Assembly: GCA_000299115.1 (NCBI GenBank)
Contig: CP003801.1
Span: forward strand, 124,001-188,000
Source of the DNA: an alpha proteobacterium HIMB59
Lineage (GTDB): Bacteria; Pseudomonadota; Alphaproteobacteria; HIMB59
Direction of reading: 5' to 3'
DNA: 64,000 bases
Shown here: positions 2,459 through 11,795 of the stretch, in pieces
Position numbering within the stretch: the stretch's first letter is position 1
Layout: every line of letters begins with the position of its first letter
Program-made: the position numbers and the translations under genes
The notes under the pieces: model-generated
The model's input: only the letters and a program-made list of their open reading frames with translations
Told to the model about the DNA's origin: nothing
Database searches by the model: none

Positions 2459-3730
2459 ATGTTTGGAACGATTATCAATTCTTGGGCCTTATTTAGTGGC
2501 TTTGGTATGATCATGCTCGCTCATGCTCTTCAAGGCACGCTTCTAAATATCAACGCAGTTGTTTTTAACTTTTCTGATTTTGAAATCGGATATGCATTTA
2601 CAGGATATTTTATTGGTTACCTATTTAGCTCCATTAAATGTCCAAGTCTGATTAAAAACGTTGGACATATAAGAGTCTTTGCTGCTTTCGCCTCATTAGG
2701 GTCAATCGCAATTCTGTTACATTGGGTAATTGTTCATCCCATTGCGTGGTTGTTATTTAGAATGATCACTGGATTTTCTTTCGCTGCTATTTATATTGTA
2801 TGTGAGAGTTGGTTAAATGATCGTGCTGACAATCAATCCAGAGGTCAGCTGATTGGTTTTTATATGATCGTACTCTATTTTTCTAATAGTGCTGGGGTGA
2901 TGTTAGTTAATCTAAGAACTACCACTGAAGCACATCTCTATATTCTTACATCTTTATTAATTTCAGTAGCACTTGTTCCGATACTACTGACAAAAAAGCC
3001 AGCACCAGAATTCACTGCTCCCAAATTTCTATCACTAAAAGATCTATACGCTAAATCACCTATGGCGTTCGTAGGTTCTTTTGCTATTGGTATGGTCTAT
3101 TCTGCTTTATTTGGATTAATGGCTGTTTTTGGAGCAAAGATAGGGCTTAGTGTATTTCAAATTTCTATTTTGGTATTTGTGAATACTATTGTTGGTGCTG
3201 TTTTCCAATACCCTGTAGGAAAAATTTCAGATAAATATGATCGACGTACAATTTTATTTGTTTTAAATCTCATAGCCATCGCATCTTTGATTTTTGCATT
3301 CTTATTAGGCTCAATTTCTTTTTATATTTTAATCATATTTATTGGTATTCATTCTGCTGTTTCGCTTCCTTATTATGCCGTTGTTATTTCACACATGAAT
3401 GACTTTTTAGAAAAAGAAGAAATAGTTTCAGCCAGTTCGACTTTAACCTTAGTGAATGCTCTTGGAATGGTGGCCGGGCCTTTATTAGCATCAGGCTTTA
3501 TGGCCTATTTTGGGGCCTATGGTTATTTTATTTATATGATTGTTATTTATTCTTTAGTTGCCCCTTATAACTTTGCACGTATTCGAGTTGGTCGAACCAG
3601 TGACATTTATGAAGATAATACCCCTTCTATGATTGTTCCAAGAACAGCTTCTCCTGTTGGAATGCAGTTGGCAACAGATCAAATTATTAATAAAATTGAA
3701 GAGGAAGAAGATAACTCCAATGAACGTTGA
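2459..3730 (+). CDS. major facilitator superfamily transporter
   Basis: The 423-residue product is strongly hydrophobic with about 12 predicted membrane segments, split by a cytoplasmic loop near residues 178-200 (KKPAPEFTAPKFLSLKDLY). A motif-A-like GKISDKYDRRTILF follows the eighth segment, as in the MFS_1/YcaD-like group. The last 50 residues are hydrophilic and acidic and probably cytosolic. The end overlaps the RidA start by 11 bases, so transport and deamination are likely coexpressed. The substrate is unknown. The neighbours (DMSP demethylase-like protein, betaine-type dioxygenase) suggest a small methylated or amine compound, which is inference only. Confidence 0.88.
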   Translation: MFGTIINSWALFSGFGMIMLAHALQGTLLNINAVVFNFSDFEIGYAFTGYFIGYLFSSIKCPSLIKNVGHIRVFAAFASLGSIAILLHWVIVHPIAWLLFRMITGFSFAAIYIVCESWLNDRADNQSRGQLIGFYMIVLYFSNSAGVMLVNLRTTTEAHLYILTSLLISVALVPILLTKKPAPEFTAPKFLSLKDLYAKSPMAFVGSFAIGMVYSALFGLMAVFGAKIGLSVFQISILVFVNTIVGAVFQYPVGKISDKYDRRTILFVLNLIAIASLIFAFLLGSISFYILIIFIGIHSAVSLPYYAVVISHMNDFLEKEEIVSASSTLTLVNALGMVAGPLLASGFMAYFGAYGYFIYMIVIYSLVAPYNFARIRVGRTSDIYEDNTPSMIVPRTASPVGMQLATDQIINKIEEEEDNSNER

Positions 3731-4181
3731 ACAAAAATTAGAAAAATTAGGACTACAGTTACCCAATCCAGCAAAACCTGCGGGAAGTTATAAACCTTGT
3801 GTGATTGTAGATAACATGGCTTACATTTCAGGCCAAGGCCCGCTTTTAGAGGATGGAACCTTTGCTCAAGGCGTTGTGGGAAAAGATTTAACTCTTGAAA
3901 TAGCTCAAGAGCATGCCCAAAGATGCGGTCTTGCAATTTTAGCTGCTCTAAAGAATGAAATTGGAGATTTAAATAAAGTCACCCAGCTTGTTAAATTAAC
4001 GGGCTTTGTGAATTGCACCAATGATTTTACTAAGCAACCATTAGTCATTAATGGATGTTCTGATTTGATGAAGAATGTTTTTGGCGAAAAAGGTGTTCAT
4101 GCTCGAGCGGCAGTGGGAGTAAACTCTCTACCTCTTGGTTTTTCTGTGGAAATAGAAGCTATTTTTCAAATTCAATTATAA
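3720..4181 (+). CDS. RidA/YjgF/UK114-family protein
   Basis: RidA proteins hydrolyse reactive enamine/imine intermediates to keto acids and ammonia. The start chosen is the ATG at 3720, which gives 153 residues, the size of the YjgF-like subgroup with an N-terminal EQKLEKLGLQLPNPAKP. An upstream in-frame ATG at 3633 would only add translated MFS sequence. The conserved Arg is seen in HARAAVGVNSLP and the terminal acidic residue in VEIEAIF. The gene overlaps the MFS gene by 11 bases and lies 68 bases upstream of the dioxygenase gene. Imine or enamine clean-up would fit a neighbouring demethylating or dehydrating pathway. Confidence 0.88.
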   Translation: MNVEQKLEKLGLQLPNPAKPAGSYKPCVIVDNMAYISGQGPLLEDGTFAQGVVGKDLTLEIAQEHAQRCGLAILAALKNEIGDLNKVTQLVKLTGFVNCTNDFTKQPLVINGCSDLMKNVFGEKGVHARAAVGVNSLPLGFSVEIEAIFQIQL

Positions 4182-4189
4182 TTTCTCGA

Positions 4190-4218
4190 TTGACAACCAA
4201 AATATTTTAGCAAAATAT
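4190..4218 (+). promoter_or_regulatory. candidate promoter and operator before the dioxygenase gene
   Basis: A perfect -35 hexamer TTGACA lies at 4190-4195. Seventeen bases later AAATAT (4213-4218) is a weak -10. An inverted repeat, ATATTTT-AGC-AAAATAT (4202-4218), fills the spacer and overlaps the -10, a typical place for a repressor site. The AT-rich background makes the repeat less surprising than it looks. Confidence 0.4.
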
Positions 4219-4249
4219 CTTTGCAGGAATAATATTTGAGGGTGGTGCC

Positions 4250-5356
4250 ATGGAGGTTCAATTTCAAAACAACTCACTCAGTGTGAGTCATCAAAGTAAA
4301 ATCTATCAACTACATCCGGTCTGGTTAAGAGAACGTTTGCCCGGAGATGAGTATTTTGACATAGATACCCATCAACGTTTATATGAGCCCTCTTCAATAG
4401 ATTTAGATCTACAAATTTCATCAGCTACTCTTTCTGATCATTTACTTAATATTGAATTCAATGACGGTGTGAAAGGTTCATATAATATGAATGATCTTCT
4501 TTTTGAAATGGATGATGAAAAAAATAAAAGAGGCCCCTTACCAAAAAGAGTTTTATGGAATTCATCCTTAAGTCAATTTCCAGAGGCCCAGTTTGAAGAA
4601 GGAATGGCAGAAAAAAAATCAATGTACGATCTCTTGATTGATTTTTATAAATATGGATTTGTCATTATTAAAAATGTGCCCACTAAAGACAAATATCTTC
4701 TCAAGTTTGTAAACTCCATTGGTCCAGTAAAAAATACAAATTTTGGAGAATACTTTGATGTGATGTCGAAGCCGAACCCTAATGATTTAGCCTATAAACC
4801 AATTGCTCTACCCCCTCATACGGATAATCCTTATCGAAAACCAACAGCACCTGGTATTCAATTTTTACATTGCCTTCAAAATGAAGTCAGTGGAGGTTTT
4901 TCAACGCTTGTTGATGGTTTTGCGGTTGCTGAACATATCAAAACACATGATCCTGAGGCCTTCCAATCACTGACGACCACCAATCTTCGATACCAATTTC
5001 AAGACAAAGATATTGTTTTAGAAAACTGGGGAGAGTTAATTGAATTAGATGATGATGGAGATTACAAACAAGTCCGCTACAGTACTCGAGTTGACTATGT
5101 TCCTCCATTAGATACTGAAAAACTTAATACTTTTTACCGTTCTCGAAAGTTATTAAGTGTGCTTTATTCTGCATCAGATTTTGAACTCAAATTTAAATTG
5201 CAACCAGGGGATATAATGATGTTTGATAATCACCGCCTTCTCCATGGTCGAACTGCTTATGACTCCAATGAGGGGATGCGTCACCTTCAAGGATGTTATT
5301 TAGAGTTTGATGCCACTGATGGGAAGCTTCGCCACTTAGCTCGAAAGTTTCAGTAA
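4250..5356 (+). CDS. gamma-butyrobetaine-hydroxylase-like 2-oxoglutarate/Fe(II) dioxygenase
   Basis: This 368-residue protein has two parts. Residues of about 1-100 form a DUF971/GBBH-like N-terminal domain (LHPVWLRERLPGDEYFD), here without the cysteines that bind zinc in gamma-butyrobetaine dioxygenase. Residues of about 120-365 form a TauD-type catalytic domain. The iron ligands are visible as H190 and D192 in PPHTDNPYRKP and H332 in RLLHGRTAYD; an Arg for 2-oxoglutarate follows (R344). Relatives hydroxylate trimethylammonium compounds such as gamma-butyrobetaine, trimethyllysine or trimethylaminoethylphosphonate. The substrate here is unknown. An enolase-superfamily gene follows after 7 bases, implying one operon. 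Confidence 0.85.
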   Translation: MEVQFQNNSLSVSHQSKIYQLHPVWLRERLPGDEYFDIDTHQRLYEPSSIDLDLQISSATLSDHLLNIEFNDGVKGSYNMNDLLFEMDDEKNKRGPLPKRVLWNSSLSQFPEAQFEEGMAEKKSMYDLLIDFYKYGFVIIKNVPTKDKYLLKFVNSIGPVKNTNFGEYFDVMSKPNPNDLAYKPIALPPHTDNPYRKPTAPGIQFLHCLQNEVSGGFSTLVDGFAVAEHIKTHDPEAFQSLTTTNLRYQFQDKDIVLENWGELIELDDDGDYKQVRYSTRVDYVPPLDTEKLNTFYRSRKLLSVLYSASDFELKFKLQPGDIMMFDNHRLLHGRTAYDSNEGMRHLQGCYLEFDATDGKLRHLARKFQ

Positions 5357-5363
5357 ATTCCCC

Positions 5364-6512
5364 ATGGCCGAGTTAAATATCATCTCGGCAGAAGTGTTTG
5401 CGTGTAAATCAAATGCTCCTCAAATTATTTGGGCAAAAGATATGTCTCCAATGTTTGAGGCTAATATCATCGTCAAGTTAACCACTGAGTCTGGCATTGA
5501 ATGTGTGGGAGGAGTTCTTATACCGACTGAACATCATTATGATCACTCTGTTGTCGAGGCCTGTCGAAATTTATTTCCTGAAATTCTGGGAAAAAATCTA
5601 GAACAACGATCTAAGCTTACTGAATTTATGTTAACTCGGTGTGTTCCTCTCAATCCACTTGCTGTTTCTTCTATTGATATTGCCATGTGGGATGGATATG
5701 CCAAGTCAATCGACAAACCTCTTTGTGATGTTCTGGGAAGAAAAAGAGATAGTATTGCTTCTTATGCTTCTACTCCCCTTTTTCATAGTATCGATGAATA
5801 TATAAACTTTGTTAAAAATTTAGAGGCTCAACATTTCCATACCGTCAAATTTCATACATGGTGTGATGTTGAATTTGATCTTCAAATGGTCGCAAAAGTC
5901 TGTCCGCTATTTCCCAATATGAAATTTATGATTGATTGTGAGCAGCGGTATAATCGTAAGGATGCGCTCCTGTTAGGTCAAAAATTAGATGAATTAAATT
6001 TCATTTGGTTTGAAGCACCGTTTAATGATTTTGATTGGGAAAGCTATCAATGGCTTCGACCACAAATCAACACACCTGTCATTGGTGCAGGAAATTCCAT
6101 ACTTAACCCCTTCCAAATTGAGCAGTCTCTCAAATTAGATGTTTTTCATCATGCTCGAGTTGATACGACCTATGTAGGCGGTATTACAAAAGTCTTGGAA
6201 GTGATGAAAATAGCAAAGAATTTCAATAAAAATACTGAGCTTCAATCTTGGTCCTACCCCTTAGGCCAAGCAGCAAATTTACATATTATGTTAAGCCACG
6301 ATAATTGTGATTATTTTGAACAAGTTGTCCCTTTTGAAGACCACGAGCATGGAGCCAAAACTTTTATTCGAACTAATGGTAAGGGTGAAGTGACCGTGAA
6401 CCCTGATCCTGGTCTGGGAATAGAAATAGACTGGGATGTGGTTCATCGGGATTGGTATTCCCATCTAAAACTTGGCCCAAACGGGCTTGAATCAGAAATC
6501 CGATCAATCTAG
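5364..6512 (+). CDS. enolase-superfamily (mandelate racemase/muconate lactonizing type) enzyme
   Basis: The 382-residue product has the capping domain (about 1-125) and barrel typical of the superfamily, whose members abstract a proton next to a carboxylate with Mg2+. Metal ligands appear as D191 (FMIDCEQRY), E217 (WFEAPF) and N244 (GAGNS); an Asn third ligand is known in glucarate dehydratase. The base on strand two is K162-F-H164. D267 sits where the Asp of a His-Asp dyad would lie, but the His expected near residue 296 is not obvious (QSWSYPL), so chemistry may depend on one face only. The gene follows the dioxygenase by 7 bases. Dehydratase, racemase and epimerase are all possible. Confidence 0.82.
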   Translation: MAELNIISAEVFACKSNAPQIIWAKDMSPMFEANIIVKLTTESGIECVGGVLIPTEHHYDHSVVEACRNLFPEILGKNLEQRSKLTEFMLTRCVPLNPLAVSSIDIAMWDGYAKSIDKPLCDVLGRKRDSIASYASTPLFHSIDEYINFVKNLEAQHFHTVKFHTWCDVEFDLQMVAKVCPLFPNMKFMIDCEQRYNRKDALLLGQKLDELNFIWFEAPFNDFDWESYQWLRPQINTPVIGAGNSILNPFQIEQSLKLDVFHHARVDTTYVGGITKVLEVMKIAKNFNKNTELQSWSYPLGQAANLHIMLSHDNCDYFEQVVPFEDHEHGAKTFIRTNGKGEVTVNPDPGLGIEIDWDVVHRDWYSHLKLGPNGLESEIRSI

Positions 6513-6538: not shown

Positions 6539-7063
6539 ATGAAGTGGCTGATACAAATTATAAGCATCATCACAATTATGACAGGAACAAGTATGGCACA
6601 AAACATCTATAATTTTTCTATTAACGATATTGATGGCAATGTAATCAATTTTAATGAATTTCAAGGAAAACCTATTTTATTAGTGAACACCGCAAGTCGT
6701 TGTGGTTTCACCAAACAGTATGCCAATCTCTCTAATCTTCATCGAGAGTACTTAGATAAAAATCTCATTATCATAAGCACACCCTCCAACTCCTTTAAGC
6801 AAGAATTAAGTGAGGAGGAAGACGTCAAAGAATTTTGCCTAGTAAATTATCAAACAAAATTTATTTTAACGGAGATCATTGAAGTTAAAGGAGATAATGC
6901 TCATCCGCTGTATCAATGGATAGCAAATGATTATGGGAAAACACCCAAGTGGAATTTTTATAAATACTTATTTGATGGTCAGGGCAATCTTGTCGAAAGC
7001 TGGTCGTCGATGACAAAGCCTGATAGCAAAAAAATCACAGATCAAATTGATCGATTAATTTAA
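6539..7063 (+). CDS. glutathione-peroxidase-family thiol peroxidase, exported
   Basis: The 174-residue protein starts with a signal peptide (MKWLIQIISIITIMTGTSMA, cut before QN) and then a thioredoxin-fold peroxidase domain. The peroxidatic Cys is C55 in TASRCGFTKQY, and the conserved Trp is in WNFYKYLF. The Gln of the usual P-x-N-Q-F catalytic motif is Ser here (PSNSFKQE), and the region after it is shorter than in classic GPx, so the active site is slightly divergent. Non-seleno bacterial members usually take electrons from thioredoxin-like donors. The gene ends with a 4-base overlap with the convergent HxlR gene. Confidence 0.85.
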   Translation: MKWLIQIISIITIMTGTSMAQNIYNFSINDIDGNVINFNEFQGKPILLVNTASRCGFTKQYANLSNLHREYLDKNLIIISTPSNSFKQELSEEEDVKEFCLVNYQTKFILTEIIEVKGDNAHPLYQWIANDYGKTPKWNFYKYLFDGQGNLVESWSSMTKPDSKKITDQIDRLI

Positions 7064-7419
7064 TTCGTAATTTGAATTTGATCGCTATGATTTTTTTTAA
7101 TTAACTTTGTTATTTTAGAGTCGTGGTGGGTACTCCAACTATATAGTGACTGAAGAACTGGAATGGCTGACTTTCCAAAATCCGTTAAAGAGTATTCCAC
7201 ACTCGGTGGCATCACACTGAGAACTGTTCTTTTGACAAGGCCATCATTTTCCATTTCTTTGAGCTGTTTTGAGAGCATTTGTTGGGTAACCTTGGTTAAT
7301 CGACTTTTAAGTTTGCCAAATCGATGAGGTTTTTCATTTAAGTGATGAATGATGGGTATTTTCCACTTACCTCCTATTACTTGAAGAGCTTGTTCTACAG
7401 GGCATTTTTCAGTTTTCAT
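7060..7419 (-). CDS. HxlR-family winged-helix transcriptional regulator
   Basis: The 119-residue protein shows the HxlR core: KCPVEQALQVIGGKWKIPII, RFGKLKSRL and TQQMLSKQLKEMENDGLVKR. C6 is at the position of the redox- or electrophile-sensing Cys in family members such as YodB and HypR. It is divergent from an azoreductase/pirin operon across 87 bases containing a symmetrical TACTAGTA element. Such pairs usually form a local switch in which the regulator represses the reductase until quinones or other electrophiles modify Cys. The sensing role is inferred from family and arrangement. Confidence 0.9.
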   Translation of the reverse strand: MKTEKCPVEQALQVIGGKWKIPIIHHLNEKPHRFGKLKSRLTKVTQQMLSKQLKEMENDGLVKRTVLSVMPPSVEYSLTDFGKSAIPVLQSLYSWSTHHDSKITKLIKKNHSDQIQITN

Positions 7420-7435
7420 GCAGTATGATTTTATA

Positions 7436-7464
7436 TACTACTATGTTTTTATTGTCTACTAGTA
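7436..7464. promoter_or_regulatory. candidate HxlR operator between regulator and azoreductase
   Basis: TACTACTA (7436-7443) and the perfect palindrome TACTAGTA (7457-7464) lie 13 bases apart in the divergent region. TACT...AGTA half-sites resemble operators reported for YodB-type HxlR regulators. A good Shine-Dalgarno AAGGAGA (7494-7500) precedes the azoreductase start. Binding is not shown by the sequence alone. Confidence 0.45.
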
Positions 7465-7506
7465 ATTTTCATATCAAAGCTTACATAACACTCAAGGAGA
7501 AAAACA

Positions 7507-8115
7507 ATGAGCAACATTTTATTTTTAAAAACGAGCCCTAAAAACGAAGGCTCAATTTCAACAGAATTAGGTGAATACCTTGTCAATCAATTAACCAGTG
7601 TTTCAAAAAGTACTGTAACTAAAAGACAACTTGATGAAGAAATTCCATTTATAAATCAACAGATAATCAACGGGCTTTATGTTGATGATAGTCAAAAAAC
7701 AGTTGAACAAAAAGAAGCTCTAAAATTGTCCGATACCATTGTAGATGATGTAAATAACCACGATACTATTGTAATCAGTACTCCAATATACAATTTCTCT
7801 GCACCAGCTGTTTTGAAAGCCTGGGCTGATATGGTAGCTAGAGTAAACAAGACATTTTCCTATACAGAAAATGGGCCTGTAGGATTATTAAAAGATAAAA
7901 AAGCTTATGTTGTTATTTCCTCTGGGGGAACAAAAGTTGGTAGTGAAATAGACTTTTTTACTCCTTGGATGAAACACTTCCTCAAATTTATTGGTATTAC
8001 TGATGTTGAATTTATTGCTGCCGATCAACTTATGAGTGATGATGGTACTAAGCTTCAAATTGTAAAAAACCAGATCGACGAACTATTCGTAGATGATAAA
8101 AAGGAAGTAGCTTAA
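7507..8115 (+). CDS. azoR: FMN-dependent NADH-azoreductase / quinone reductase
   Basis: The 202-residue protein has the flavodoxin-like fold of AzoR: the N-terminal FMN phosphate loop in KTSPKNEGSISTELG, the central STPIYNFSAPAVLKAWAD, and SGGTKVG near residue 140. AzoR reduces quinones and azo compounds by two electrons with FMN and NAD(P)H, protecting the cell from electrophiles. A Shine-Dalgarno lies six bases before the start. The stop shares one base with the pirin start, so the two are coupled. Regulation by the divergent HxlR protein is likely. Confidence 0.9.
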   Translation: MSNILFLKTSPKNEGSISTELGEYLVNQLTSVSKSTVTKRQLDEEIPFINQQIINGLYVDDSQKTVEQKEALKLSDTIVDDVNNHDTIVISTPIYNFSAPAVLKAWADMVARVNKTFSYTENGPVGLLKDKKAYVVISSGGTKVGSEIDFFTPWMKHFLKFIGITDVEFIAADQLMSDDGTKLQIVKNQIDELFVDDKKEVA

Positions 8116-8816
8116 TGATTACTATAAGAAAAAGTGAGGAGAGAGGTCCAAGTAATTTTGGATGGCTCGATAGCAAGCATACTTTTTCTTTTGGCCATTA
8201 TTATGATCCTCAAAATATGGGATTTGGGAATCTCCGAGTAATTAATGATGACCGAGTAGATGGAGGAAGGGGCTTCGATGCTCATCCTCATAACAACATG
8301 GAAATTATTTCTTATGTTATTGAGGGTGCCTTAGAACATAAAGATAGCATGGGAACTGGATCTGTTATTAAACCAGGAGATGTGCAACATATGAGTGCTG
8401 GAACTGGTGTTGTTCATAGTGAATTTAATCATTCTCCTACAGAGAAAGTGCATTTCTTACAGATTTGGATTGTGCCCAAAGAACGTGATATTGAACCTAA
8501 ATATAATCAAAAATATTTCAGTGAAGAAGATAAACTTAATAAATTAGCTAAAATCATATCCCCTGACGGGTCTGATAATTCGATTGAAATAAATCAAGAT
8601 ACAACGATATTTGCCTCGATAGTCGATAAAGACGGCGAAGTTAAATTCACTCCTTCCAACGACAAAGATTATTGGATTCATGTCGTTCAAGGGGATGTTA
8701 ATTTTCAAGAATACAATTTAAAAGAAGGCGATGGGGTTGCTATCACTAAAGGTGAGTTATCAGAGATGACTTTTCGATCTTCTAATAAAGGAGAGTTTTT
8801 GTTATTTGAAGTATAA
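8115..8816 (+). CDS. pirin-family protein (YhhW-like cupin)
   Basis: The 233-residue protein carries the pirin double cupin. The metal-binding motif of the N-terminal cupin appears as FDAHPHNNMEIISYVIEGA together with QHMSAGTGVVHSEFN. The N-terminus (RKSEERGPSNFGWLDSKHTF) is typical of the YhhW type, whose E. coli member shows quercetinase activity. The gene overlaps azoR by one base and is the last of its operon, followed at once by a bidirectional terminator. Pairing with a quinone reductase under an HxlR regulator suggests a role against quinone-like aromatics. Confidence 0.9.
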   Translation: MITIRKSEERGPSNFGWLDSKHTFSFGHYYDPQNMGFGNLRVINDDRVDGGRGFDAHPHNNMEIISYVIEGALEHKDSMGTGSVIKPGDVQHMSAGTGVVHSEFNHSPTEKVHFLQIWIVPKERDIEPKYNQKYFSEEDKLNKLAKIISPDGSDNSIEINQDTTIFASIVDKDGEVKFTPSNDKDYWIHVVQGDVNFQEYNLKEGDGVAITKGELSEMTFRSSNKGEFLLFEV

Positions 8817-10655: not shown

Positions 10656-11795
10656 TTAAGAGCTTGCGAGAGTTTTTTTGGGATCATAAAAAGGTTTTTC
10701 GACGACAAAACCATTTCGAATGTTTTCATCAATTAACACATTTACTGATTGACCATGCTTATTAGCTGCAACATCAATCATCGCAAGGGCTATATTTTTT
10801 TTCAAACGAGGTGAATAAACAGCTGAAGTTACTTTGCCTATATTTTTTCCATCCATTTGAATTGGCCAAAAAATAGTGTTCGGGCCTTCTAAAGGATCTC
10901 CAGAGATTTCTAAACCAACTTGAATACGTTTAATTCCCTCTTCATGAATTTTTTGTAAGGCTTTCTTGCCAATAAAATTGATATCGCTATCTAAAGCCAC
11001 CAAACGATCCAATCCTACCTCAAAAGGATTAGTGTGAATGTCCGCATCTGCATGATAGGAAAGCATTCCACCTTCAATACGGCGAATACTTGAAGTATGA
11101 CCTGGCTGTAAACCAAACTCTTTTCCGGCATCCATAATCAACTCCCAAAGTTGATCACCTTTAGAACCATTGCGAAGATATAATTCATAGCCAAGTTCAC
11201 TCGACCATCCTGTTCGCGAAACTACTAAAGGTATCCCTTCTAATTCGAATTCACGAAGCCAATAATATTTTAAATCTTTTATGCCCTCCCCGAATAACTT
11301 TTCCATAATCATGCCAGATTTTGGCCCTTGCAGTTGTAAAGGTGAAACATCTGGTTCTTGAATAGAAACATTTAATCCGGAATTTACAGCAACACCTTGT
11401 GCCCAAAATAAAATATCGCTATCAGAAAGAGAAAGCCAAAAATGATTTTCCCCTAATCGAAGTAAAACAGGATCATTAAGAATTCCCCCTTGTTCATTGA
11501 CTATTAAAACATATTTACATTGTCCTACAGCTAGTTTGCTGAGATCACGTGGTGTTAAAAGCTGAATAAATTGATATGCATCAGGACCGGTTATTTCTAC
11601 TTGCCGCTCGACCGCCACATCGCAGAGAATCGCATCGTTCACCAAATTCCAAAAATTTTGCTCAGGGCTTCCAAAGTCCCGAGGGATGTACATATGATTG
11701 TAGACAGAGAAGCCTGTAGCGCCCCATCTCACAGTTGCATCAAAATAAGGAGATTTTCTTATTTGTGTGCCGAAACCAAAGTTTTTATTGGACAT
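10656..11795 (-). CDS. DmdA-like GcvT-family methyltransferase, second copy
   Basis: The 379-residue protein shares the DmdA/GcvT fold with the gene at 1314-2420: FSVYNHMYIPRDFG, CDVAVERQVEITGPDA, GILNDPVLL, LQLQGPKSG, SRTGWSSELGYELYL and SIRRIEGGMLSY. As in that gene, N replaces the Asp of the GcvT folate motif. It differs in the N-terminus and in having YYWLREFELEG where DmdA has FFNFK, so it belongs to a different clade, probably demethylating another methylated substrate with tetrahydrofolate. It is monocistronic; the nearest genes are an ion channel and glnK. The substrate is unknown. Confidence 0.8.
   Translation of the reverse strand: MSNKNFGFGTQIRKSPYFDATVRWGATGFSVYNHMYIPRDFGSPEQNFWNLVNDAILCDVAVERQVEITGPDAYQFIQLLTPRDLSKLAVGQCKYVLIVNEQGGILNDPVLLRLGENHFWLSLSDSDILFWAQGVAVNSGLNVSIQEPDVSPLQLQGPKSGMIMEKLFGEGIKDLKYYWLREFELEGIPLVVSRTGWSSELGYELYLRNGSKGDQLWELIMDAGKEFGLQPGHTSSIRRIEGGMLSYHADADIHTNPFEVGLDRLVALDSDINFIGKKALQKIHEEGIKRIQVGLEISGDPLEGPNTIFWPIQMDGKNIGKVTSAVYSPRLKKNIALAMIDVAANKHGQSVNVLIDENIRNGFVVEKPFYDPKKTLASS

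Follow-up and report, generated by a model that had tools for sequence, protein, structure and literature searches.

The 64,000-nucleotide window analysed here, taken from the single contig (1,410,127 bases) that constitutes the genome of alpha proteobacterium HIMB59, contains a compact same-strand cluster of four genes, encoding a carrier of the MFS family, a RidA-like imine/enamine deaminase, an Fe(II)/2-oxoglutarate (2OG) dioxygenase and an enolase-superfamily enzyme, here called ENOL. The main finding of this study is that ENOL occupies a slot that is exchanged, among close relatives, for an unrelated HD protein. We tentatively favour the view, at somewhat less than even chances, that the genes together serve to catabolize a zwitterionic alpha-amino acid bearing a methylated onium group, with N-epsilon-trimethyllysine as the most likely substrate and S-methylmethionine as the second. 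Throughout, coordinates are window positions unless a locus is named, L numbers denote fetched genome or plasmid loci, and G numbers denote genomes of the HIMB59 genus.

The exchange is evident from the distribution of the genes. Among 52 genomes of the genus, the dioxygenase gene is found in 42, the HD gene in 31 and ENOL in 12, with HD and ENOL together in none. Of the 43 genomes that have either ENOL or HD, 42 are those with the dioxygenase and the other is G015; the remaining 9 hold none of the three genes. By coordinates, the HD gene lies directly 3′ of the dioxygenase gene in all 31 cases (in G350 across a contig break), and the two genes overlap by 4 bp in L126 and by 8 bp in L127. In the ten genomes with a completeness of 90% or more and a contamination of no more than 5%, the dioxygenase occurs in 9, HD in 6 and ENOL in 3. 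The absence of any ENOL/HD overlap in 43 genomes has a probability of 6.5e-11 under free assortment, a figure that is overstated because the genomes are related; the gene trees are the fairer evidence for an exchange.

In those trees, in which several genomes are counted twice, once per collection, the label of the slot changes four times on the dioxygenase tree (three changes being forced by well-supported branches), five times on the RidA tree (two forced), seven times on the MFS tree (four forced), and once on the tree of the downstream glutathione-peroxidase-like gene, GPX. Three genomes (G022, G338 and G348) have MFS, RidA and dioxygenase genes of the HD lineage, yet their ENOL and GPX genes resemble those of the window. 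The trees therefore indicate that ENOL-GPX blocks recombined jointly into genomes with HD-lineage upstream genes. The boundary is visible at the DNA level: G338, which has ENOL, and G335, which has HD, are 98-100% identical per 200-bp bin across the 3′ part of MFS, RidA and the dioxygenase, as against 54-63% in the slot.

The HD protein is predicted to be a di-iron oxygenase, its modelled fold being of the oxygenase type. Its AlphaFold2 model (pLDDT 89) is closest to PhnZ (Z 17.2, rmsd 3.0, 154 aligned) and TmpB (Z 16.5, rmsd 3.2, 156 aligned), followed by MIOX (Z 11.3), with the other entries listed at 8.1 or less. The H..HD..H..H..D ligand pattern of di-iron HD enzymes, defined together with the YxxE motif in the accessible text of PMC8177086, is invariant in 8 of 8 aligned members (H59, H83-D84, H94, H117 and D156). 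The YxxE substrate loop of PhnZ and TmpB is missing, Tyr replacing Glu in all eight, and the protein lies far under the cutoffs of the TmpB family (26-28 bits against 300) and the phosphonate-HD family (38-40 bits against 214.6). Of 289 alphaproteobacterial genomes, 82 have a member of the HD family. Dioxygenase-HD pairs also occur outside the genus (L116, L117, L120, L121, L200, L201 and L210), which suggests that HD is an older partner of the slot than ENOL. Other HD relatives adjoin 2OG oxygenases of different families, a PhyH-family protein in L164 and a DIOX_N/2OG-FeII_Oxy protein in L189; this is in line with the logic of PhnYZ and TmpAB, where a hydroxylase is combined with an HD oxygenase.

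The dioxygenase (4250-5356, plus strand) is a GBBH/TmpA-like member of the TauD family, belonging to an Asp-type subfamily. It scores below the family cutoffs for both TmpA (NF049936, 341 bits against 400) and gamma-butyrobetaine hydroxylase (GBBH; TIGR02409, 267.6 against 414.75), and its model (pLDDT 86, pTM 0.78), used for the nearest fold only, is closest to TmpA (6npb) and the human GBBH, BBOX. The alignment to these two proteins shows that the iron triad (H190/D192/H332) is kept, as is the aromatic onium cage (F165/F169/Y182 at BBOX 177/181/194). The zinc cysteines of true GBBH are replaced, with L, G and Y at BBOX C38, C40 and C43, and in this the reading made earlier from the sequence only was correct. 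The accessible text of PMC9296572 describes BBOX N191 and N293, and TmpA N187, N287 and R288, as contacts to the anionic end or the phosphonate of the substrate. In the window protein the first Asn is replaced by Asp179 and the second, throughout the genus, by Thr, and the Arg equivalent to R288 is kept. The residue table, from which the broken genes of L050 and L052 are excluded, has Asp at the N191 position in every genus row that it shows; of its 12 other homologues, 9 have Asp and three (L123-L125) have Asn, the latter without an HD match in the flanks. HD-adjacent homologues outside the genus have Asp in seven of eight cases, the seven pairs listed above, and Asn in one (L167).

The Asp is informative because of its counterpart in trimethyllysine hydroxylase (TMLH, also TMLD). 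According to the accessible part of a review (PMC7764450), TMLH Asp231, which is homologous to BBOX N191, is thought to bind the alpha-ammonium group of the substrate. From this match we predict that the substrate is a methylated-onium alpha-amino acid and that the dioxygenase is its beta-hydroxylase. The likeness to TMLH extends to the H-D-H iron triad and to aromatic residues at three cage positions, whose columns we take to correspond to F/F/Y of the window protein. At the presumed place of TMLH N334 the window protein has Ser292/Thr293.

Some side observations concern homologues of the dioxygenase. Asp-type genes in L133 and L134 lie in regions with MttB-like methyltransferase genes (319-320 bits, cutoff 525), together with oligopeptide-type ABC genes in L133 and another enolase-superfamily gene in L134. 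In L201 a GBBH-like gene lies nearby, as do genes resembling carnitine dehydrogenase (413.7 bits against a cutoff of 414) and a keto-acid cleavage enzyme (270.8 against 382); a gamma-butyrobetaine route was considered for this carnitine context and dropped, the HD-linked dioxygenase there having lost its aromatic cage (W/A/M).

ENOL (5364-6512, plus strand; MR_MLE family; PF13378, 122 bits) has neither the His-Asp dyad of the mandelate racemase subgroup nor a K-x-K motif. K-x-K is the usual base motif in the enolase superfamily; K-x-H (K162 and H164) stands in its place in 32 of 32 aligned homologues, all of which also have the metal ligands D191, E217 and N244. The dyad Asp (D267) is present in 31 of the 32, and the partner His in none; ENOL has Ser295 where 1rvk has His, so that the absence of the dyad His noted from the sequence alone is borne out. 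The best match in the PDB is 4jhm (E 8.5e-73), an entry with no named function in the PDB listing and presumably from Pseudovibrio. It shares with ENOL the K-x-H motif, the D/E/N ligands, a dyad Asp without its His and Q-S on the seventh strand, although it is a distant relative (phmmer 248 bits). A close relative of 4jhm on a Vibrio plasmid adjoins a BCCT carrier, in a region without an annotated dioxygenase.

The neighbours of ENOL homologues elsewhere are suggestive of substrate class. Residue Q294 is present in 5 of 5 HIMB59 rows, in 11 of 11 BCCT-linked rows and in 4jhm, as opposed to 2 of 15 others; Met or Leu takes its place in the other 13. At 58 ENOL loci in genomes outside HIMB59, a BCCT carrier is close by in nine and a GntR-type regulator in eight, and all three plasmid hits have a BCCT carrier alongside. 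The ENOL branch is thus linked to quaternary-ammonium uptake more than once. Some of these loci form GntR-enolase-enolase-BCCT clusters (Bacillaceae, Actinomycetota, Psychrobacter), whose first enolase shares the motifs of ENOL at an identity of 38-42%; they differ from the window in having the BCCT carrier and a second enolase-superfamily gene, and the fetched flanks contain no dioxygenase or RidA match. HD was looked for in four enolase-BCCT clusters (L051 and L053-L055), with no match. More distant relatives of ENOL (34-38% identity; Latescibacteria, SAR202, Gemmatimonadota and others) have no coherent betaine context, their recurrent neighbours, named from sequence, being short-chain dehydrogenase-like, amidohydrolase-like and ABC transporter genes.

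Individual loci with BCCT carriers next to ENOL homologues are L051, L053, L054, L058 and the plasmids L207, L208 and L209, all of which except L209 also have a second enolase-superfamily gene. The enolase copy of L053 is closely related to 3sjn, a protein of solved structure (E 2.7e-169), and genes for RidA and DUF3726 are present at L208 too.

A scheme that would account for these properties has three steps. With the onium group bound by the aromatic cage and the alpha-ammonium group by Asp179, the Asp-type dioxygenase would hydroxylate the beta carbon. In genomes with HD, the di-iron oxygenase would then use O2 to cut the C2-C3 bond, so that trimethyllysine would give gamma-butyrobetaine and iminoglyoxylate; in genomes with ENOL, the Mg-dependent enzyme would use K162/H164 to abstract the alpha proton, with elimination of the beta-hydroxyl to give an enamine/imine. 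RidA would hydrolyse the imine of either branch, releasing ammonia and leaving a 2-oxo acid or glyoxylate. There is a precedent for the ENOL step in cis-3-hydroxy-L-proline dehydratase, another member of the enolase superfamily, which dehydrates a beta-hydroxy amino acid to an imine; ENOL is only a distant relative of this enzyme (NF043002, 35 bits against a cutoff of 500). Trimethyllysine ranks first, a hydroxylase acting on it being known, while S-methylmethionine is a sulfonium compound of fitting shape. This is the sole scheme we found that would give RidA, ENOL, HD and the Asp each a job. The full claim, that open-ocean HIMB59 bacteria break down trimethyllysine or S-methylmethionine through an Asp-type beta-hydroxylase and then, by two unrelated second steps swapped behind one dioxygenase, through either an HD cut to a betaine acid or an ENOL elimination free of O2 and pyridoxal phosphate (PLP), with RidA clearing the imine, describes a pathway not found in the literature searched, and we regard it as doubtful.

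The sequence-only reading is supported in part. Its proposal of a pathway acting on a methylated ammonium or sulfonium compound is supported by the onium cage, by OpuAC-type, ProW-like and ProV-like genes upstream, and by BCCT and choline-type neighbours elsewhere. The ENOL/HD exchange and the TMLH-like Asp, which points to an alpha-amino acid, did not figure in that reading. Nothing ties the cluster to dimethylsulfoniopropionate (DMSP) itself, since the adjacent DMSP demethylase gene, dmdA1, is constant in the genus and has no match near homologous dioxygenases of other lineages at the loci examined.

A number of observations weigh against an alpha-amino acid module. Exchange proves a common slot, not a common substrate, and an absent gene may represent missing data, given the incompleteness of many of the 52 genomes. 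The dioxygenase falls under the trimethyllysine dioxygenase cutoff (TIGR02410, 183.4 against 268.3 bits), and its F/F/Y cage differs from the Y217, W221 and Y234 given for TMLH in the accessible part of PMC7764450. Just five of the 28 top-ranking HD loci from other genera have a GBBH/TmpA-like gene within their 1.5-kb flanks. A strict coupling of Asp to HD is ruled out by L167, where an Asn-type gene (34% identity) is divergent to an HD gene; in view of this orientation and distance, and set against the hydroxyproline precedent, the exception leaves our estimate unchanged. At L132, a dioxygenase-HD pair is followed by a phosphate-type binding protein (PBP_like_2, named from sequence), which would fit a phosphonate. 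The genes are also not intact everywhere: the dioxygenase and ENOL are frame-broken in G330, as are genes in L050, the HD gene of G340 has one in-frame stop, and G015 (L052) retains ENOL though its dioxygenase is cut after about 104 residues. In this last locus (L052:8876-10001), the cut gene is followed by an unrelated frame that by eye resembles a restriction-endonuclease-type protein and then by the intact ENOL; the break could be an insertion or the result of a chimeric contig in a metagenome-assembled genome.

There are multiple alternative scenarios. One is that the substrate is an acidic onium compound without an amino group, such as gamma-butyrobetaine, beta-alanine betaine or DMSP; the dioxygenase would then produce an alpha- or beta-hydroxy acid, from which ENOL would eliminate water, trimethylamine or dimethylsulfide, and which HD would cleave oxidatively. 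The kept aromatic cage, dmdA1 and the ProXWV-like neighbours, and the BCCT carriers beside ENOL homologues would all suit such a substrate, as would another lineage in which an Asp-type dioxygenase-HD pair lies beside a choline-type binding protein, a choline dehydrogenase and an aldehyde dehydrogenase. We nevertheless consider it rather improbable, because the anion-contacting Asn has become Asp, the second Asn (BBOX N293, TmpA N287) has become Thr, and RidA would be left without a job. The same two substitutions count against a pathway like TmpAB, which oxidizes 2-trimethylaminoethylphosphonate (TMAEP) in Leisingera. Here TMAEP or a relative would be hydroxylated, HD would free phosphate, and ENOL would handle a related hydroxy acid or phosphonate. 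The resemblance is considerable: in sister genomes a cage-bearing Fe/2OG hydroxylase is followed by an HD protein, the dioxygenase matches TmpA best among both families and PDB entries, PhnZ and TmpB are the nearest structures of HD, the Arg of TmpA R288 is kept, and the binding protein of L132 would fit. However, both phosphonate-contacting Asn residues are replaced, HD lacks the YxxE loop, the scores lie below the TmpA cutoff and far below that of TmpB, the window has ENOL in place of HD, and enolase chemistry normally requires a carboxylate; a phosphonate substrate is thus distinctly improbable.

It is also conceivable, though unlikely, that ENOL and HD serve separate pathways and that recombination has merely swapped adjacent cargo, the dioxygenase acting alone or with distant genes. 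Consistent with this, the GPX tree indicates that the ENOL-GPX block moved as a unit, Asp-type dioxygenases occur without HD or ENOL alongside (L128 and L129), the dioxygenase and HD genes of G245 are about 68 kb apart, ENOL persists with a truncated dioxygenase in G015, and 23 of the 28 HD loci outside the genus have no nearby GBBH/TmpA-like gene. On the other hand, none of the 43 genomes has both genes and none of the 42 genomes with a dioxygenase hit lacks both; the spacing is tight, with ENOL 7 bp past the dioxygenase stop and HD overlapping it by a few base pairs in L126 and L127; the dioxygenase is constrained among ENOL genomes; and HD relatives adjoin 2OG oxygenases of other families (L164, L189). 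A further variant is that ENOL is a PLP-free retro-aldolase acting on 3-hydroxytrimethyllysine, with an upstream aldehyde dehydrogenase (ALDH) completing the route to gamma-butyrobetaine, so that ENOL plus ALDH would equal HD. Such a reaction would proceed through the same stabilized carboxylate enolate as others of the superfamily, and an ALDH gene does lie upstream on the same strand. The test of co-occurrence gave no support, as ALDH (E 1e-150 or lower) is found in 7 of 12 ENOL genomes and 9 of 31 HD genomes, G013 having an ALDH-like fragment at a contig end, and it is missing from the ENOL genomes G338 (89% complete) and G348 (92% complete); we consider this variant very unlikely.

The cluster of the window is conserved. 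Lack of conserved linkage in relatives had been named in the sequence-only reading as an outcome that would refute that reading, and the linkage is present. A scan of the genome collection with the ENOL alignment gave 71 genome loci, of which 12 are HIMB59-clade orthologues (61-96% identity), the close named relatives being HIMB59-clade alphaproteobacteria such as alpha proteobacterium HIMB59 isolate MED-G104. The order dmdA1-MFS-RidA-dioxygenase-ENOL-GPX is found at 10 of the 12, including L050 with its frame-broken genes; of the other two, L042 reaches a contig end inside RidA, and L052 has the same order with the truncated dioxygenase and a partial dmdA1 match. There is no ENOL match in viral contigs. 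ENOL and the dioxygenase are under purifying selection, most of the synonymous rates (dS) being saturated: for ENOL against five relatives the nonsynonymous rate (dN) is 0.021-0.149 and dS 0.311-2.362, the larger values saturated, and for the dioxygenase, in five comparisons among ENOL genomes, dN is 0.039-0.158 and dS a saturated 1.08-2.98.

In relation to known systems, the sister genomes follow the logic of TmpAB and PhnYZ, and the window follows it with an enolase-superfamily replacement that was not found in the literature searched. The search gave nothing linking the enolase superfamily to carnitine and betaine, or mandelate racemase to BCCT, betaine and enolase or to HIMB59, and among the trimethyllysine titles listed, 7 of 7 in one set and 15 of 190 in another, none named such a bacterial pathway, most subscription papers lying outside the scope of both. 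As for studies of HIMB59, the accessible text of PMC10308909 makes no mention of DMSP, enolase, dioxygenase, butyrobetaine or trimethyl, and that of PMC10734472 no mention of betaine, dioxygenase, DMSP, phytanoyl or mandelate; the phosphonate passages seen in the latter concern other islands, with C-P lyase. HIMB59 bacteria are abundant in the ocean, and the abstract of PMC10734472 describes HIMB59 as cosmopolitan.

An implication of the exchange is that it provides a natural experiment, in which a nearly identical dioxygenase gene stands before either ENOL or HD, and one product may serve both. In the surface ocean, methylated onium compounds rank among the main currencies of carbon, nitrogen and sulfur. 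The HD family and the K-x-H group of the enolase superfamily, to which 4jhm belongs, are both without a known function, and the exchange makes of them a small and decidable set for assay. If ENOL does act on an open-chain onium beta-hydroxy amino acid, the substrate range of the superfamily would extend past the hydroxyproline precedent.

Finally, we describe the remaining genes of the locus, of which MFS, RidA, GPX and dmdA1 are on the plus strand. The four-gene arrangement recognized in the sequence-only reading, with its overlaps, short gaps and families (MFS_1, YjgF_endoribonc, TauD and MR_MLE), was confirmed. The MFS carrier, a presumed importer (2459-3730; PF07690, 137 bits), overlaps RidA by 11 bp and adjoins it in the fetched genus loci that extend that far. 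The RidA-like protein (3720-4181, 153 residues) starts at the ATG at 3720, a TTG at 3633 merely giving the longest frame. It is above the Pfam gathering scores (PF14588, 68.9 bits; PF01042, 53.6 bits) and under the Rid family cutoff (TIGR00004, 39.7 bits against 106.25), and it keeps the HARAAV segment, the Arg of which we take to be catalytic. Gaps of 68 bp, 7 bp and 26 bp separate RidA from the dioxygenase, the dioxygenase from ENOL, and ENOL from GPX (6539-7063; PF00255, 107 bits).

Upstream, dmdA1 (1314-2420) ends 38 bp before MFS. It was correctly recognized as dmdA, passing the orthologue cutoff (NF009133, 514.6 bits against 410), and its best PDB match is 3tfh (E 1.2e-136); in the accessible text of a paper on DmdA evolution (PMC7487153), the HIMB59 protein AFS48343.1 is handled as a DmdA sequence. 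Its place is conserved as constant upstream neighbour within the genus, and its membership in the pathway is uncertain. Farther upstream on the same strand of the same genome (L039) are genes for an OpuAC-type binding protein, ProW- and ProV-like proteins (named from sequence, the family scan having been done on their L126 counterparts), an aldehyde dehydrogenase and an M19 dipeptidase.

Downstream, the stretch between GPX and an AMT gene (7060-8816) has HxlR regulator, flavin-reductase-like and pirin-like genes and varies among relatives, L031 matching pirin only and L126 none of the three. A second DmdA-like gene of the GcvT family (10656-11795, minus strand; 387 bits, slightly below the cutoff of 410) lies beyond the AMT and GlnB genes, and the HD-type sister L127 has one as well (L127:4702-5871). 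The window opens with a DUF3726 gene (139-735). In L127 the DUF3726 gene comes after a 551-residue protein without a Pfam match (L127:15146-16801), with an M19 dipeptidase-like gene alongside, and on a plasmid of Pseudomonas sp. MPC6 a hypothetical protein and a DUF3726 gene are found near a BCCT-enolase cluster.

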